Source: an uncultured Bacteroidales bacterium
Lineage (GTDB): Bacteria > Bacteroidota > Bacteroidia > Bacteroidales > Bacteroidaceae
Assembly: GCA_902779165.1 (NCBI GenBank)
Contig: CACZAN010000030.1
Location: forward strand, 1 to 40,770
Direction of reading: 5' to 3'
Length of the DNA stretch: 40,770 nucleotides
The notes beneath the pieces are model-generated. The model did not search any database. It was not told the DNA's origin and saw nothing but the letters and a program-made list of their open reading frames with translations. The position numbers and the translations under genes were made by a program. Numbering within the stretch: the first letter of the stretch is position 1; each line of letters opens with the position of its first letter. Below are positions 7,166 to 40,197 of this stretch, one piece after another.

Positions 7166-7237
7166 TAGTCCATAGCAGAGTCGAACTGCTCTTTAGAGAA
7201 TGAAAATCTCTCGTCCTAACCGATAGACGAATGGACC
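7166..7237 (-). tRNA. tRNA-Glu (TTC anticodon)
   Basis: Reads as a complete cloverleaf on the minus strand. The acceptor arm is GGTCCAT/ATGGACT, the anticodon stem-loop AGAGATTTTCATTCT has TTC at the anticodon position, and the T arm contains AGTTCGACTCT. The 3' CCA is not encoded. It is upstream of rpsT on the same transcript. Confidence 0.95.
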
Positions 7238-10184: not shown

Positions 10185-10258
10185 CGCTTCAGGATGGGCT
10201 TGAACCAACGACCCCCTGATTAACAGTCAGGTGCTCTAACCAACTGAGCTACTGAAGC
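10185..10258 (-). tRNA. tRNA-Asn (GTT), distal copy
   Basis: Acceptor GCTTCAG/CTGAAGC, D arm AGCTCAGTTGGTTAGAGC, anticodon stem-loop CTGACTGTTAATCAG with GTT, T arm GTTCAAGCC, discriminator G. Identical to the proximal copy 92 bp away; 3' CCA not encoded. Confidence 0.96.
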
Positions 10259-10276: not shown

Positions 10277-10350
10277 CGCTTCAGGATGGGCTTGAACCAA
10301 CGACCCCCTGATTAACAGTCAGGTGCTCTAACCAACTGAGCTACTGAAGC
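10277..10350 (-). tRNA. tRNA-Asn (GTT), proximal copy
   Basis: Same sequence as the copy at 10185-10258. The two form a tandem duplication of tRNA plus short flank and share one promoter (10438-10468). Confidence 0.96.
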
Positions 10351-10494: not shown

Positions 10495-11478
10495 ATGACA
10501 AAAATAATAGGAATTGGGAACGCTTTAGTGGATGTTTTGATCCATTTGGAGGACGAAACGCTGCTACAAACGCTTAAATTGCCAAAAGGTGGCATGACCC
10601 TCATTGATGAGGTACAACTGACCGCCATCAACAATGCCACAGCCCACCTTCTTCGCCATCGCGCCACAGGGGGGAGCGCTTCGAATACCATCCATGCACT
10701 GGCTTCGTTGGGTGATAACGTTGGATTCATCGGCTCAGTCGGCGACGACGAGACGGGGATCTTCTTCTGCCGTCAAGCAGAGGCACGCGGCATAGAAACA
10801 CATATCTCAACGGTGAGCGGAATGACCAGCGGCACCGCCACCACCCTTATCACCCCCGACGGCGAACGCACCTTTGCCACACATCTGGGTGCAGCCACAC
10901 AAGTAGTGCCGGCAGAAGAATTCCCTGCTATCATCCGCAAGCAGTCCTCCTCACAGGACATCCTCCATATTGAGGGCTACCTCGTTCAGGACCACCAACT
11001 CATCGAGCAGCTGCTTCGCGAAGCCAAGGCAGCAGGAATGATGATCAGCTATGACCTCGCCTCATGGAATATCGTTGCTGCCGACCGTCCATTCATCCAG
11101 CACTTAGTGGCTGACTACGTGGATTTCGTATTCGCCAACGAGGAAGAGGCGGCCGCCTTCAGCGGACAACAAGATCCGGAAGAGGCCCTGCGAATACTTA
11201 AAGAACAGGCATCCGTAGCCGTTGTAAAGGTTGGCAAGCGGGGAGCCATGGGATGCCACAACGGCGTCAAAGCCTTTGCCCCAGGCCTCGTGCGGAAAGT
11301 TGTAGATACCACCGCCGCTGGCGATTTCTTTGCCGCGGGCTTCCTCCACGGATGGATCCACGGACTACCCCTCGACCGCTGCCTCGACTACGGCAACCGC
11401 ATTGCCGCCGAAATCGTACAAGTCGTGGGCACTCAGGTCGCCGCCGACCGTCTGCTGGCCGCATTAGAATACTCATAA
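10495..11478 (+). CDS. PfkB/ribokinase-family kinase, adenosine kinase-like
   Basis: A 327-aa sugar/nucleoside kinase. The N-terminal substrate lid region has GIGNALVDVLIHL and the PfkB signature region GGSASNTIHALASLG. The C-terminal ATP/anion-hole motif is VVDTTAAGDFFAAGFLHG, with the catalytic Asp in AAGD. Bacteroidetes proteins of this form are usually annotated adenosine kinase (adenosine + ATP to AMP). The substrate is inferred, and other nucleosides or sugars are possible. The frame extends to a TTG at 10474, but the ATG at 10495 gives the normal start and fits the promoter. It is followed by a 9-bp repeat tract and the S41 protease gene. Confidence 0.85.
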   Translation: MTKIIGIGNALVDVLIHLEDETLLQTLKLPKGGMTLIDEVQLTAINNATAHLLRHRATGGSASNTIHALASLGDNVGFIGSVGDDETGIFFCRQAEARGIETHISTVSGMTSGTATTLITPDGERTFATHLGAATQVVPAEEFPAIIRKQSSSQDILHIEGYLVQDHQLIEQLLREAKAAGMMISYDLASWNIVAADRPFIQHLVADYVDFVFANEEEAAAFSGQQDPEEALRILKEQASVAVVKVGKRGAMGCHNGVKAFAPGLVRKVVDTTAAGDFFAAGFLHGWIHGLPLDRCLDYGNRIAAEIVQVVGTQVAADRLLAALEYS

Positions 11479-34656: not shown

Positions 34657-35196
34657 ATGACTCCATTGGTTTCTATCATCATGGGCAGCACTAGTGACCT
34701 GCCGGTCATGGAGAAAGCTGCCAAGTTCCTCGACGAATTGGAAGTGCCGTTCGAGATGAACGCTCTTTCGGCTCATCGCACTCCGGCAGAAGTAGAGAAA
34801 TTCGCTATCGAGGCCGAGGGCCGGGGGCTGAAAGTCATCATTGCTGCAGCAGGTATGGCTGCCGCCCTGCCTGGTGTGATTGCCGCACAGACAACGCTGC
34901 CCGTCATCGGCGTGCCCATCAAAGGAATGCTCGACGGCCTCGATGCTCTGCTTTCCATCGTCCAGATGCCTCCCGGAATACCTGTAGCTACCGTAGGAGT
35001 GAACGGCGCACAGAACGCTGCCGTGCTGGCCTGCGAGATGTTGGCGCTGACCGACCCTGCGTTGGCCGAACGAATGCATGAATACAAGAAAGGGCTGGAA
35101 CAGAAGATTGTGAAAGCCAACGCCGAACTGGCAGAAGTGAAATATAAGTTTAAATGCCCCTCACCCCGCTCCCCCCGTGGGGGGGAGGGCCTCTAA
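34657..35196 (+). CDS. purE: N5-carboxyaminoimidazole ribonucleotide mutase
   Basis: Converts N5-CAIR to CAIR in purine synthesis (class I PurE). 179 aa. Motifs: IIMGSTSDLPVM (phosphate loop), NALSAHRTPAE with the catalytic His, IAAAGMAAALPGVIAA, GVPIKGMLDGLDALLSIVQMPPGIPVATVGVN. The family normally ends close to AEVKYKFK. Here the last 13 residues ([13 protein letters not shown]) are encoded by copy 1 of the GC-rich palindromic element, which has replaced or extended the native C-terminus. The frame is open upstream to 34585, but Met at 34657 is the family start. Confidence 0.94.
   Translation: MTPLVSIIMGSTSDLPVMEKAAKFLDELEVPFEMNALSAHRTPAEVEKFAIEAEGRGLKVIIAAAGMAAALPGVIAAQTTLPVIGVPIKGMLDGLDALLSIVQMPPGIPVATVGVNGAQNAAVLACEMLALTDPALAERMHEYKKGLEQKIVKANAELAEVKYKFKCPSPRSPRGGEGL
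35156..35188 (-). repeat. GC-rich palindromic element, copy 1 (in purE)
   Basis: 33 nt in reverse orientation. The core is CTCCCCCC-CAC-GGGGGGAG (8-bp hairpin, 3-nt loop) with a tail CGGGGTGAGGGGC. It is read in frame as the PurE C-terminus ([10 protein letters not shown]) and forms an inverted pair with copy 2. Confidence 0.9.
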
Positions 35197-35232: not shown

Positions 35233-36840
35233 ATGAATCATAGCAATATAAGCAGTAACGCAGCTCTCCCCCCCACGGGGGGAGCGGGGAGCGGGGCTAG
35301 AAGACGCCCCACCCACGAAGTGCGCGTTGGCAATATCGGCATCGGAGGACAGAATCCCGTGCGGGTGCAGTCTATGTGCACGACAAGCACGATGGACACC
35401 GACGGGTGTGTGCAGCAGATCCTGGCGATTGCCAGAGCTGGCGGCGAGCTGGTGAGGCTGACGACGCAGGGAGTGCGCGAAGCCGAGAACATGCGGATTA
35501 TCCGCGAACGCGTGAGGGCTGCTGGCTGTGACGTGCCCCTCGTGGCCGACGTGCACTTCAACCCCGCCGTGGCCGACGTCGCGGCGCGCTATTGTGAGAA
35601 AGTGCGCATCAACCCCGGCAACTATGTCGATGCAGCGCGGAAGTTCAAGAATCTGGAGTATACCGACGAGGAATATGCCGCCGAACTGCAGAAGATCGAA
35701 GACCGGCTCATACCCTTCCTGAACATCTGTCGTGAATATGGCACCGCCGTACGCATCGGAGTGAACCACGGCTCCCTGAGCGACCGTATCATGAGCCGAT
35801 ATGGCGACACCCCCGAAGGCATCGTAGAATCGTGTATGGAGTTCCTTCGCGTATGTGTGCGCGAGAACTTTAATAATGTCGTCGTCAGCATCAAGGCATC
35901 GAACACCGTAGTGATGGTTGAATCGGTGCGCCTGCTCTGCAAAGCGATGGATGCCGAAGGAATGACCTTCCCGCTGCACCTCGGGGTGACAGAAGCCGGC
36001 GAGGGAGAGGACGGTCGTCTGAAGAGCGCTGTGGGAATTGGAGCCCTGCTCATAGATGGCATTGGCGACACCATACGTGTCAGCCTCAGCGAGCCGCCGG
36101 AGAACGAAATCCCCGTGGCCTACTCCTTGCTGCAAGCCGCACGACTGCGGTTCACCAAGACAGAGTATATCAGCTGTCCCGGCTGTGGTCGCACGCTCTA
36201 TGACCTGCCCGCCACCATCCAACGTATCAAAGCAGCCACCAGCCATCTCACAGGATTGAAGATTGCCATCATGGGATGCATCGTCAACGGACCCGGAGAA
36301 ATGGCAGATGCGGACTACGGTTATGTGGGTGCTGCGCGCGGCAAGGTCAGCCTCTATCGCGGCAAGGAATGCGTGGAAAAGAACATCCCCGAAGAGGAAG
36401 CGGTGCAGCATCTTCTTGCAATCATCGGCCCCTCTCTAACTCCCCCCGTGGGGGGGAGGACCTCAAGTCCTTTGAGGGAATATCAGACTGCTGATTCAGG
36501 AAATTATCCGTTATTAAAGGATTTTGCTCGGGAGAACAGGTATCATCCTACCGAGGCGGAATCATTATTGTGGGAACGTCTGAAAGGATATGCCTTGAAA
36601 TATCCTTTTAGAAGACAACATATAGTTGGAAATTTCATTGCAGATTTTGCATGTCTTCCAAAGAGATTAATCATTGAACTGGATGGTGGCTACCATCAGT
36701 TGCCTGACCAGCAGGTGAGTGATGCTGAAAGGACGAATTGGCTTGAGCAACAGGGATTCAAAGTGATTCGATTCTCGAATGAAGAAGTCATAGGAGATAT
36801 AGAACATGTATTATCAATAATTAAAGAACACTTGAAATAG
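35233..36840 (+). CDS. ispG: IspG (HMBPP synthase) fused to a C-terminal DUF559 nuclease-like module
   Basis: IspG makes HMBPP from MEcPP in the MEP isoprenoid pathway, using a 4Fe-4S cluster. Residues about 25-290 form the TIM barrel ([48 protein letters not shown]). Cluster ligands: CPGCGR and GCIVNGPGE. The B domain resembles the long plant/chlamydial type ([17 protein letters not shown]), yet the A* insert of that type is absent. Residues 11-21 ([11 protein letters not shown]) come from palindrome copy 2, residues about 399-408 from copy 3. From about 413 to 535 a DUF559 domain follows: [41 protein letters not shown], with the Asp and ExD of PD-(D/E)XK enzymes. The module could also start independently at TTG 36472. 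Confidence 0.9.
35265..35297 (+). repeat. GC-rich palindromic element, copy 2 (in ispG N-terminus)
   Basis: 33 nt, same core, tail CGGGGAGCGGGGC. Read as [10 protein letters not shown] within IspG. Near-perfect inverted partner of copy 1, with the purE stop and ispG start between them. Confidence 0.9.
36428..36460 (-). repeat. GC-rich palindromic element, copy 3 (end of ispG)
   Basis: Exact reverse complement, over 33 nt, of copy 4 at 36865-36897. Tail GTTAGAGAGGGGC. Read as SLTPPVGGR at the junction between IspG and the DUF559 module. Confidence 0.93.
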
Positions 36841-36842
36841 AT

Positions 36843-38378
36843 ATGGAAACAAGAGGAAATGAAATCCTCCCCCCCACGGGGGGAGTTAGAGAGGGGCTAT
36901 TAATATACAACACCCTTTCACGCACGAAAGAACTATTTCGTCCTGTTGTTGAGGGGCGTGTAGGCATGTATGTCTGCGGCCCCACCGTCTACGGCGACGC
37001 CCATCTGGGTCACGCCCGACCAGCTATCACCTTCGACCTCCTGTTCCGCTATCTGCAACATATCGGCTACAAGGTGCGCTACGTTCGCAATATCACAGAC
37101 GTAGGACATCTGGAACACGATGCCGACGAGGGCGAGGACAAGATTGCAAAGAAAGCACGACTGGAACAGCTGGAGCCCATGGAAGTGGCACAGTACTACA
37201 CCAACCGCTTCCACGATGCCATGCGCGCCCTCAACTGCCTGCCGCCTTCCATCGAACCCCACGCCACGGGCCACATCATCGAACAGATACAGCTGGTGAA
37301 GGAAATCCTGGCGAACGGCTATGCCTACGAGAGCCAGGGCAGCGTATACTTCAACGTGGAGAAATACAATGAGAAGTACCGCTACGGAAAACTGTCGGGA
37401 CGCAACCTGACAGATGTCATCAACAACAGTCGCGAACTCGACGGCCAAGGCGAGAAGCACAACCAAGTGGACTTCGCCCTCTGGAAATGCGCGCAGCCCG
37501 AACACATCATGCGCTGGCCCTCGCCCTGGAGCGACGGGTTCCCCGGCTGGCACTGTGAGTGCACAGCTATGGGACGCAAATACCTGGGCAACCACTTCGA
37601 CATCCACGGAGGAGGCATGGACCTCGTATTCCCCCACCACGAGTGCGAGATTGCGCAGGCCGTGGCCAGTCAGGGCGACGATATGGTGAAGTACTGGATG
37701 CATTGCAATATGATCACCATCGGCGGTCAGAAAATGGGCAAGTCGTTGGGCAACTTCATCACTCTCAACGAGTTCTTCACAGGCAACCACGAGAAACTCT
37801 CACAAGCCTATTCGCCCATGACCGTACGCTTCTTCATCCTCCAGGCCCATTATCGTTCAACCGTGGACTTCTCGAACGAAGCCTTGCAGGCGGCCGAGAA
37901 AGGACTACAGCGACTGACGGGTGCCATCGCAGATCTGAAGCGCATAGCCCCCGCCAAGGAAAGCGATGCCGAAACACACAAGGTGGCCACGGAGCTGCGC
38001 CAAAAGTGCTACGACGCCATGAACGACGACCTGGCCTCGCCCACCGTCATCAGCCTGCTGTTCGAAGCCTCATCCACCGTCAACCGCGTGCTCGACCATA
38101 AGGGCAACATCAGTGCAGAAGATCTCGAGGAACTGGGATCCACCATGCACCTCTTTGCCGAGGACATACTTGGACTTCTCCCCCCCACGGGGGGAGGCAG
38201 AGAGGGGCAAAGAGAGGAAGCCTTCGGACAGGTCGTGGATATGCTGCTGGAACAGCGCGCCATCGCCAAAGCCAACAAGGACTGGGCCACCAGCGATAAG
38301 ATTCGCGACAGCCTGGCAGCCCTCGGCTTCGAAGTCAAAGACACCAAAGACGGCGCCACCTGGACCCTGAACAAGTAA
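36843..38378 (+). CDS. cysS: Cysteinyl-tRNA synthetase with two palindromic-element insertions
   Basis: A 511-aa class I synthetase charging tRNA-Cys. [10 protein letters not shown] is the HIGH motif and [12 protein letters not shown] the KMSKS motif. Zinc ligands lie in [18 protein letters not shown] and PHHECE. The C-terminal helical domain ends with [29 protein letters not shown]. The usual Bacteroidetes N-terminus runs straight into IYNTL. Here [19 protein letters not shown] precedes it, encoded by palindrome copy 4. A second insertion, [12 protein letters not shown] (about residues 445-456), is encoded by copy 5 in the anticodon-binding region. Both are in frame and the catalytic motifs are intact, so the enzyme should work. 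It starts 2 bp after the DUF559 stop. Confidence 0.95.
36865..36897 (+). repeat. GC-rich palindromic element, copy 4 (in cysS N-terminus)
   Basis: Same core plus tail GTTAGAGAGGGGC, read as [10 protein letters not shown]. Perfect inverted partner of copy 3. Confidence 0.93.
38177..38208 (+). repeat. GC-rich palindromic element, copy 5 (inside cysS)
   Basis: 32 nt, same core, tail GGCAGAGAGGGGC, read as [10 protein letters not shown]. Single copy, plus orientation, no partner in the window. Confidence 0.9.
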
Positions 38379-38574: not shown

Positions 38575-40197
38575 ATGGCAAAATTTGATGCTTCTGTTTT
38601 AGAGAAGTATGGCATCAAGGGTTCTACCGTGATTGCCTATAATCCGTCGTATGAGTTCCTCTTTGAGGAGGAGACCAAGGCTGGCCTGGAAGGCTATGAA
38701 GTCGGTCAGGAGACTGAACTCGGAGCTGTGAACGTGATGACTGGTATCTTCACCGGCCGCTCCCCCAAGGACAAGTACATCGTTGACGATGCCCAGAGCC
38801 ACGACAAGGTATGGTGGACCTCTGAGGCCTACAAGAACGACAATCACCCCATGAGCGAAGCCGTCTGGGCACAGGTCAAGGATATCGCCACCAAGGAGCT
38901 CTCCGGCAAGAAACTCTACATCGTAGACGCCTTCTGCGGCGCCAACGAAGCTACCCACCTCGCCGTGCGCTTCATCCTTGAGGTCGCTTGGCAGGCACAC
39001 TTCATCAAGAACATGTTCATCCAGCCCACCGAGGCTGAGCTCGAGAAGTTCGAGCCCAACTTCGTCATCTACAACGCCTCCAAGGCAAAGGTGGAGAACT
39101 ACAAGGAACTCGGCCTCAACAGCGAGACTTGCGTAGCCTTCAACACCACCAGCCGCGAGCAGGTTATCATCAACACCTGGTACGGTGGCGAGATGAAGAA
39201 GGGTATGTTCTCCATGCAGAACTACTACCTCCCCCTCCAGGGCATCGCCAGCATGCACTGCTCCGCCAACACCGACATGGAAGGCAAGAACACCGCTATC
39301 TTCTTCGGCCTCTCCGGAACCGGTAAGACCACCCTCTCCACCGACCCGAAGCGTCTGCTCATCGGCGACGACGAGCACGGATGGGACGACGAAGGCGTGT
39401 TCAACCTCGAAGGAGGCTGCTATGCCAAGGTCATCAACCTCAGCAAGGAGAACGAGCCCGACATCTACGGCGCCATCAAGCGCGACGCCCTCCTCGAGAA
39501 CGTCACCGTGGACAAGGACGGTAAGATCGACTTCGCCGACAAGAGCGTCACCGAGAACACCCGCGTCAGCTATCCCATCGAGCACATCGAGAAGATCGTG
39601 AAGAAGGTCAACGGCAAGAGCGCAGGTCCCGAGGCCAAGAACGTCATCTTCCTCAGCGCCGACGCTTTCGGCGTGCTGCCTCCCGTCAGCATCCTCACCC
39701 CCGAGCAGACGAAGTACTACTTCCTCAGCGGCTTCACCGCTAAGCTCGCCGGCACAGAGCGCGGCATCACCGAGCCCACGCCCACCTTCAGCGCTTGCTT
39801 CGGCCAGGCATTCCTCGAGCTGCATCCCACGAAGTATGCCGAGGAACTCGTGAAGCGCATGGAGAAGAGCGGTGCCAAGGCTTACCTGGTCAACACCGGC
39901 TGGAACGGCACGGGCAAGCGCATCAGCATCCCCGACACACGCGGAATCATCGACGCTATCCTCGACGGCAGCATCCTCAAGGCTCCCACCAAGAAGATTC
40001 CTTTCTTCGACTTCGAGGTGCCCACAGAACTGCCCAACGTGAATCCCGCCATCCTCGATCCTCGCGACACCTACGCAGAGGCCAGCATCTGGGAGGAGAA
40101 GGCTAAGGATCTCGCCGCACGCTTCATCAAGAACTTCGGCAAGTACACCACCAACGAAGCCGGCAAGGCTCTCGTGGCCGCTGGTCCGAAGCTCTAA
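38575..40197 (+). CDS. pckA: Phosphoenolpyruvate carboxykinase (ATP)
   Basis: A 540-aa, full-length ATP-type PEPCK interconverting oxaloacetate + ATP and PEP + CO2 + ADP. In Prevotella/Bacteroides it commonly runs in the CO2-fixing direction on the way to succinate. Motifs: [12 protein letters not shown] (substrate Arg), [16 protein letters not shown], the P-loop [13 protein letters not shown], metal-binding [19 protein letters not shown], and NTGWNGTG. Codon use is the most strongly biased in the window, typical of a highly expressed gene. It has its own promoter and is followed by strong terminators. Confidence 0.98.

Follow-up and report, generated by a model that had tools for sequence, protein, structure and literature searches.

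The DNA described here comprises positions 1 to 40,770 of contig CACZAN010000030.1 (assembly GCA_902779165.1) of an uncultured Bacteroidales bacterium and is called the window in the following. We suggest that a 470-bp segment of this window, consisting of one gene for a DUF559 nuclease between two inverted palindromic units, is probably a minimal mobile element, that is, a system like the repetitive extragenic palindromic (REP) sequences and their REP-associated tyrosine transposases (RAYTs), which would be run by a nuclease of the Vsr/homing type. Comparative data argue for its mobility: we observed an association of DUF559 genes with matching arms, sequence specificity, a deletion series, presence/absence differences between relatives and purifying selection on the gene. 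The window genome (G000, with the window as contig C30) comprises 3.59 Mb on 75 contigs and is 86% complete.

The two arms of the element are exact reverse complements of each other over 33 nt, and the perfect pairing extends no further on either side. Terminal inverted repeats as known from insertion sequences are thus present in the window element, and they are also found in other DUF559 elements. Each arm is made up of an 8-bp hairpin with a 3-nt loop plus a tail and reads CTCCCCCCCACGGGGGGAG-TTA-GAGAGGGGC on the G-rich strand; the left-arm hairpin has a calculated energy of -9.2 kcal/mol as single-stranded DNA (z -1.9 compared to shuffles). DUF559 is the sole recognised domain between the arms. 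It lies in the same frame as ispG, and the fused open reading frame (ORF) scores 410 bits for GcpE/IspG and 106.3 bits for DUF559 in Pfam, where the curated cut-off of the latter is 20.6 bits. The perfect inverted repeats and the in-frame fusion, both of which had been described in a preceding sequence-only reading of the window, could thus be confirmed. The palindrome core CTCCCCCCnnnGGGGGGAG occurs five times without mismatch in the window, all within 3.1 kb, namely in the two element arms, in an inverted pair where purE adjoins ispG, and in a single unit in cysS. A further copy with three mismatches is located at position 10658 (0.21 copies expected from shuffles at up to three mismatches). 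In the whole 3.59-Mb genome there are only 8 mismatch-free sites, including the 5 inside the window, and the backwards control gave 0. The gene-less inverted pair that the same reading had noted upstream of the element is real, its arms being 91% complementary. All five mismatch-free units are translated in frame as parts of ORFs, whereby the right arm falls within the N-terminus of the cysS frame. Read-through frames like that of IspG-DUF559 occur in 15 of 105 elements of the genus, and stop codons are for the most part absent from several frames of the arms.

The association of DUF559 with such arms is not confined to the window. From the genus, 30 loci and others picked among the matches listed gave 131 elements, 128 of them with at least 250 nt on both sides, and an inverted-arm score of at least 14 was taken as a match. 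Matching inverted arms were found for 112 of these 128 DUF559 genes compared to 31 of 383 combinations with swapped flanks; outside the genus, the values were 61/89 and 40/265, respectively. Some matches with swapped flanks are to be expected because the elements share palindrome families. For cysS, which served as a control gene, none of 26 cases had matching arms. Perfect inverted repeats of at least 16 nt within 500 bp were detected at 17 of 31 genus loci (L001 and L017-L046, several of them cut by contig ends) compared to 1 of 62 shifted windows. The set from genome contigs consisted of the best 80 of 577 loci, from which 8 that were cut by contig ends had been dropped; 53 of the remaining 72 reached a score of at least 14 (shifted windows, 5/270) and 43 a score of at least 20 (shifted windows, 0/270). 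Among 12 loci from a plasmid collection, six reached the threshold (cyanobacteria, Deinococcus, Sphingomonas, Novosphingobium, Sinorhizobium) and the other six stayed below it. Overall, matching arms were found in Proteobacteria, Cyanobacteria, Deinococcota, Chloroflexi, Nitrospirota, Omnitrophota and the window's genus, which we take to belong to the Bacteroidota. The enrichment of palindromes in DUF559 flanks, which had been proposed as a check of the idea, was thus observed. The median size of the 161 elements that score at least 16 is 488 bp. Moreover, arms and proteins covary (Mantel r 0.25, n=102, and 0.35, n=56; 0/999 permutations as high in each case). This covariation shows that arms and gene behave as one unit of inheritance; recognition is not thereby demonstrated. 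Two side observations by eye concern the arrangement of the units: in Neisseria gonorrhoeae (L089), they stand on both sides of DUF559 in direct orientation on one strand (inverted score 11, not counted as a match), and the Novosphingobium/Sinorhizobium loci L086:1397-1463 and L088:1339-1453 have long arms of 66 and 114 nt with more than one hairpin.

The assignment of DUF559 to the PD-(D/E)XK nucleases, as made in the sequence-only reading, agrees with the fold and with an acidic/histidine core. The AlphaFold2 (AF2) model of the window's DUF559 domain reached a pLDDT of 86.5, and the closest solved fold in the PDB was NGO0050, followed by a homing nuclease; among characterised proteins, the homing nuclease I-Bth0305I and Vsr come nearest in fold. 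Across 51 aligned DUF559 sequences, E17, D45, E56, D58, H62, D71 and R74 (fragment numbering) are invariant, among others. Fold and core place the domain with the Vsr/I-Bth0305I-like PD-(D/E)XK proteins. The gene is under strong purifying selection with a median dN/dS of 0.08. I-Bth0305I, which is labelled as EDxHD-type, is intron-encoded and carries additional DNA-binding parts. As a homing endonuclease it homes to the intronless allele, whereas in the case of DUF559 palindromes would be spreading; the Vsr mismatch endonuclease is tied to cytosine methyltransferases, whereas the recurrent partner of DUF559 is a palindrome pair. As a separate observation, the DUF559 frame is interrupted by a single in-frame stop in two of 80 loci (L094, L104), which are perhaps decaying copies. 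The view that DUF559 lacks an assigned role holds for the most part, with the exception of Caulobacter VsrA; this member of the family is reported as Vsr-like and is needed for the SOS response on loss of the methyltransferase ScmA (PMC12907096, accessible part).

The typical repeat unit, both in the genus and outside, consists of a C-rich arm, a loop, a G-rich arm, a short spacer and a G-rich tail. The tail mirrors the G-rich arm, since in 86 of the 94 scorable units (out of 161) it does so better than the average of its own shuffled versions (p = 7e-15), and it points outward in the genus (73 vs 10) and inward elsewhere (38 vs 7). This geometry is that of a published intrastrand triplex motif (TM, or TM/PIT; PMC4666352), so that a triplex capability is predicted for the present units. 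The palindrome as such had been recognised in the sequence-only reading, which left the published geometry unmentioned. According to the accessible text of PMC4666352, the motif is present in >260 genomes, triplex formation in vitro was found for TM_ECO, and 23 TM_ECO copies, with five inverted pairs among them, are tabulated for Escherichia coli MG1655; the origin is considered unclear by the authors, and remnants of transposases or integrases were never found around the sites. No word beginning with nuclease or DUF occurs in the main text of that paper. The likeness of TM_ECO to the units described here includes the C-rich arm, the loop, the G-rich arm, the spacer of ~3 nt, the mirror-symmetric G-rich tail and the inverted pairs, whereas TM/PIT copies were published as orphan repeats and the present units bracket DUF559.

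In E. coli, TM_ECO no. 9 (1,351,204-1,351,239; PMC4666352, accessible part) and the DUF559 gene ycjD (1,351,407-1,351,760) lie 167 bp apart. We estimate from 23 copies and 4.64 Mb that a TM copy would lie within 200 bp of a ycjD-sized gene by chance in ~0.4% of cases. A 3.3-kb ycjD region is present at ≥80% in one place in 3362 of 5426 E. coli genomes. The locus was considered as a clean empty-site case and rejected, for the two genomes without it that were examined carry efflux genes there (see also PMC12817139, accessible part). The alx-sstT and ygfF-gcvP alleles that were examined represent deletion or replacement and no clean insertion. It was also seen that TM pairs 10+11 and 12+13 (ygfF-gcvP, alx-sstT; L372, L373, L376) have a similar interior of ~28 nt, like small elements of one family, that strain P19_598 has lost one TM unit plus the interior, and that ycjD is annotated as incomplete in E. 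coli HS (L251), where the fabI start is ~106 bp nearer than in the K-12-like L253.

A second case was found in the window genome itself, which contains two strong DUF559 genes plus a marginal match of 20.7 bits in a 1305-aa frame. On either side of the second strong gene (L001) stand perfect inverted repeats of 35 nt, which belong to another palindrome, family B. With up to two mismatches, the B core gave 73 matches in this genome (32 forward, 41 reverse; 72 positions) and 0 in the backwards control; 29 copies are free of mismatches, and 46 of the 73 matches form 23 inverted pairs with starts <200 bp apart. Over the genus, the summed counts of B-unit matches come to 362 in 34 of 139 genomes. 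By size, 43 family-B inverted pairs fall into 113-193 bp (19), 290 bp, 377 bp and 470-635 bp (22). The intermediate pairs of 290 and 377 bp, the latter with a shortened DUF559, represent internal-deletion derivatives as in miniature inverted-repeat transposable elements (MITEs). The proposed MITE-like derivation thus stands for family B, for which alone it was examined; in family A, the one of the window, the interior of the neighbouring gene-less pair is by eye unlike the window element. In the B minis, 22 inner columns have 12.7 bits of conservation compared to 2.6 bits just beyond the arms, and their inner ends are of two kinds that resemble both ends of the DUF559-bearing L001 element. When each end was assigned to the nearer kind, 16 of 22 minis proved to be mixed and 6 had two ends alike, where random pairing would give 10.4 mixed minis (1188/100,000 as high). 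The reverse approach by spacing alone covered three wide-spaced B pairs among the matches listed, which were searched for DUF559 only: the G006 pair with units 470 bp apart contains a DUF559 gene of 131 bits that is absent from the listed matches, the G011 pair at 343 bp contains a truncated DUF559 of 27 bits, and no DUF559 was detected in the G034 pair at 256 bp. At least two B copies were present in 11 of 13 genomes with a sampled B-type DUF559 compared to 10 of 60 others (Fisher p = 5.6e-6), the sample covering only some of the DUF559 genes in each genome.

DUF559 is present in 100 of the 139 genomes of the genus, which are incomplete. The ispG-cysS junction was visible in 26 of 30 loci, with four intact elements (G000, G011, G017, G018), four degenerate ones (L171, L173, L174, L188) and 18 junctions without the element. 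Element-free junctions, for which the sequence-only reading had suggested to look in relatives, do therefore exist; neither a lack of repeat association nor an absence of empty alleles, either of which it named as speaking against the idea, was observed. In many element-less alleles, ispG ends with ...HADGRC and cysS starts with MNQPLLIYNT or similar; in the filled alleles, other sequence stands at both gene ends, and cysS starts within the element. By coordinates, DUF559 adjoins cysS also in G103 and G034. One of the 18 element-less junctions (L196, genome G130) has ~270 bp of other sequence instead. From ten further sites, seven were searched and six of these aligned (the gene names valS, purL and hisS were read from sequence), and at each of the six the insert is missing from one relative or more, with ~15-40 nt of different sequence in its place; at two of these sites, one relative carries a different GC-rich insert. 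The valS units are common to G011 and thus shared between species. In a hisS-like gene, different palindromic inserts occupy the same place in the window genome (L208, G000:C25) and in G060 (L239/L244), which looks like a hot spot of independent insertions. Furthermore, an element is present in G125 and absent in G132, two genomes that are 95% identical around cysS and 83% at the element site.

The features of the window are compiled in the table. The gene order is purE-like, ispG, cysS and a further ORF at 38575-40197. Three tRNA genes lie on the minus strand, two of them adjacent and with equal score (10185-10258, 10277-10350) and the third at 7166-7237.

Table. Positions of the putative element, its repeat units and the neighbouring genes in the window
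Feature	Position	Strand	Remarks
Whole element (left arm, DUF559 gene, right arm)	36428..36897	+	470 bp
Left terminal inverted repeat	36428..36460	+	Outer C-rich tail 36428-36439, hairpin 36440-36458
DUF559 (PF04480) nuclease domain, PD-(D/E)XK fold	36511..36837	+	Pfam, alignment, AF2, PDB matches
Right terminal inverted repeat	36865..36897	+	Hairpin 36867-36885, outer G-rich tail; read in CysS frame
Fused ORF, IspG (PF04551) then DUF559 in same frame	35233..36840	+	535 aa
cysS	36843..38378	+	Start codon 36843 within element, just ahead of right arm
Cargo-less unit, left arm of upstream inverted pair	35156..35190	+	In frame, C-terminus of AIRC/purE-like ORF
Cargo-less unit, right arm of upstream inverted pair	35263..35297	+	In frame, N-terminus of ispG
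Single unit inside cysS	38178..38208	+	In frame

Taken as a mobile element, the DUF559 segment might function as follows. The nuclease would move and multiply units of its own type, both in cis as the nuclease element of ~490 bp and in trans as pairs of 113-193 bp and gene-less single units. The unit may become exposed during replication as a folded single strand or cruciform, whereupon DUF559 would recognise the fold of its own unit and nick or cut at its edge. The freed or broken end could then be copied elsewhere via strand transfer or repair synthesis; the copy would often take the place of a few tens of bases, presumably with no duplication of the target. As no target-site duplication was found, the chemistry of this insertion is conjecture. 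Internal deletion, as seen in the family-B series, would lead to MITE-like derivatives that may still be mobile in trans. Since the arms are mostly stop-free in several frames, insertions inside genes would survive, and ispG and cysS would therefore merely gain a few residues. With somewhat less confidence than in the element itself, we lean towards the wider view that DUF559 proteins are the mobility enzymes of widespread single-gene elements of ~400-650 bp, which recognise a palindrome with hairpin and triplex tail and have seeded many phyla with gene-less TM/PIT repeats, and that ycjD of E. coli is a stranded or domesticated member.

Overall, a mobile palindrome run by a nuclease agrees better with the data than do the models in which DUF559 is a passenger, a host enzyme or a relic. 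It might be that the palindromes spread otherwise, for example by replication slippage, another transposase or recombination, and that DUF559 was captured by such pairs or homes into them. The element indeed replaces the old ispG-cysS intergenic region, like a cassette exchange between two existing palindromes, and a homing nuclease is the nearest solved fold after NGO0050. In addition, the two valS units flank native coding sequence, so that single units may arise independently, and no excess of target-site duplications of 2-8 nt over shuffled pairing was found for the 43 family-B pairs. We nevertheless regard a passenger role as unlikely, for the arms of each gene match each other and track the protein, the minis retain conserved subterminal ends resembling those of the nuclease element, the palindrome type of a genome follows its DUF559 type, and two of the three wide-spaced B pairs among the matches listed, searched for DUF559 alone, held the gene in whole or truncated form. 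It could also be that DUF559 serves the host as a nuclease for repair or restriction, akin to Vsr, and that the palindromes are shared terminators or mRNA stabilisers which insulate a risky gene. The requirement of VsrA in Caulobacter (PMC12907096, accessible part) suggests such a host role, and the strong purifying selection as well as the YcjD-type genes without arms would be in line with it. Terminators, however, need not be mutual inverted copies, yet swapping of flanks removes most of the match; the many B-unit matches, with copies inside genes or at gene ends, and the patchy presence of the gene in an incomplete genome set (no search for methyltransferases was made) also render a host function quite improbable. 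Finally, the elements might once have been mobile, with DUF559 copies now decaying and a pattern that reflects inheritance plus deletion. This would account for the degenerate junctions, the in-frame stops and the valS insertions common to different species, but is hardly credible in view of the low dN/dS, the perfect arms of 33-35 bp, the 29 mismatch-free B cores in one genome and the difference between G125 and G132.

The valS units, the missing target-site duplication and VsrA weigh against a mobile element run by DUF559 itself, as do the following points. No relative was found that is close enough for a clean single-step insertion; element-less alleles also differ by ~15-40 nt. The opposite tail directions in the genus and elsewhere are not explained by a single element definition. 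Several mini ends could be assigned to the two kinds only loosely, and the fit to these kinds is poorer for other B-type DUF559 elements than for L001. The ten genomes with at least two B copies and no sampled B-type DUF559, one of which (G138) has 44, have to be read in view of the incomplete DUF559 sampling. Among the DUF559 genes, 28 of 89 from other organisms and 16 of 128 from the genus had arm scores below 14; some DUF559 genes are repeat-free, and the enterobacterial ycjD-type genes L079, L090 and L092 have no matching arms.

The parallel to REP/RAYT systems with a Vsr-like nuclease, drawn in the sequence-only reading, fits the palindrome-flanked DUF559 genes and the gene-less copies, and the architecture of a minimal mobile element is supported by the arm association and the element-less junctions, from which movement would follow. 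As in a REPtron, the units on both sides of the gene are also found without it, in many cases paired in inverted orientation. The enzyme differs, since DUF559 is a PD-(D/E)XK nuclease and no HUH (Y1) tyrosine transposase, for which no gene was found between the window arms; the unit has a G-rich tail with predicted triplex capability instead of the GTAG tag, which is absent from the window arms reading GCCCCTCTCTAACTCCCCCCGTGGGGGGGAGGA and its complement. In-frame palindromic insertions are also represented by the Rickettsia palindromic elements, and we know of no mobility gene for these or for others of their kind. In REP/REPIN and RAYT (TnpA_REP) systems, as in the present case, short palindromic units often form inverted pairs, units of the same kind enclose one small gene, gene-less copies are numerous, one genome has several specific families and some copies lie inside genes, and Rickettsia palindromic elements share in-frame palindromes in housekeeping genes (PMC3733652, accessible part, and in part general knowledge). 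CGTC-tagged REPs without a dedicated transposase (PMC3733652, accessible part) were considered as partners of DUF559 and rejected: one pattern was used on 44 loci, and the sole match (L082:1213) is by eye not such a unit. No report that ties DUF559/YcjD to palindromic repeats was found in the open literature, which is weak evidence with subscription journals mostly uncovered. If true, the finding would represent a second, unrelated invention of the REP/RAYT lifestyle, with a Vsr/homing-type nuclease replacing the HUH transposase. It would explain why housekeeping proteins such as IspG and CysS contain odd insertions and fusions that keep the frame and that annotation would treat as native, and has a bearing on the reported genome instability around E. 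coli triplex motifs. There might also be use as a tool for a nuclease that is small, specific and able to recognise folded DNA. At once and in a testable way, the finding offers an abundant domain without known function a role and an abundant repeat of unclear origin a source.

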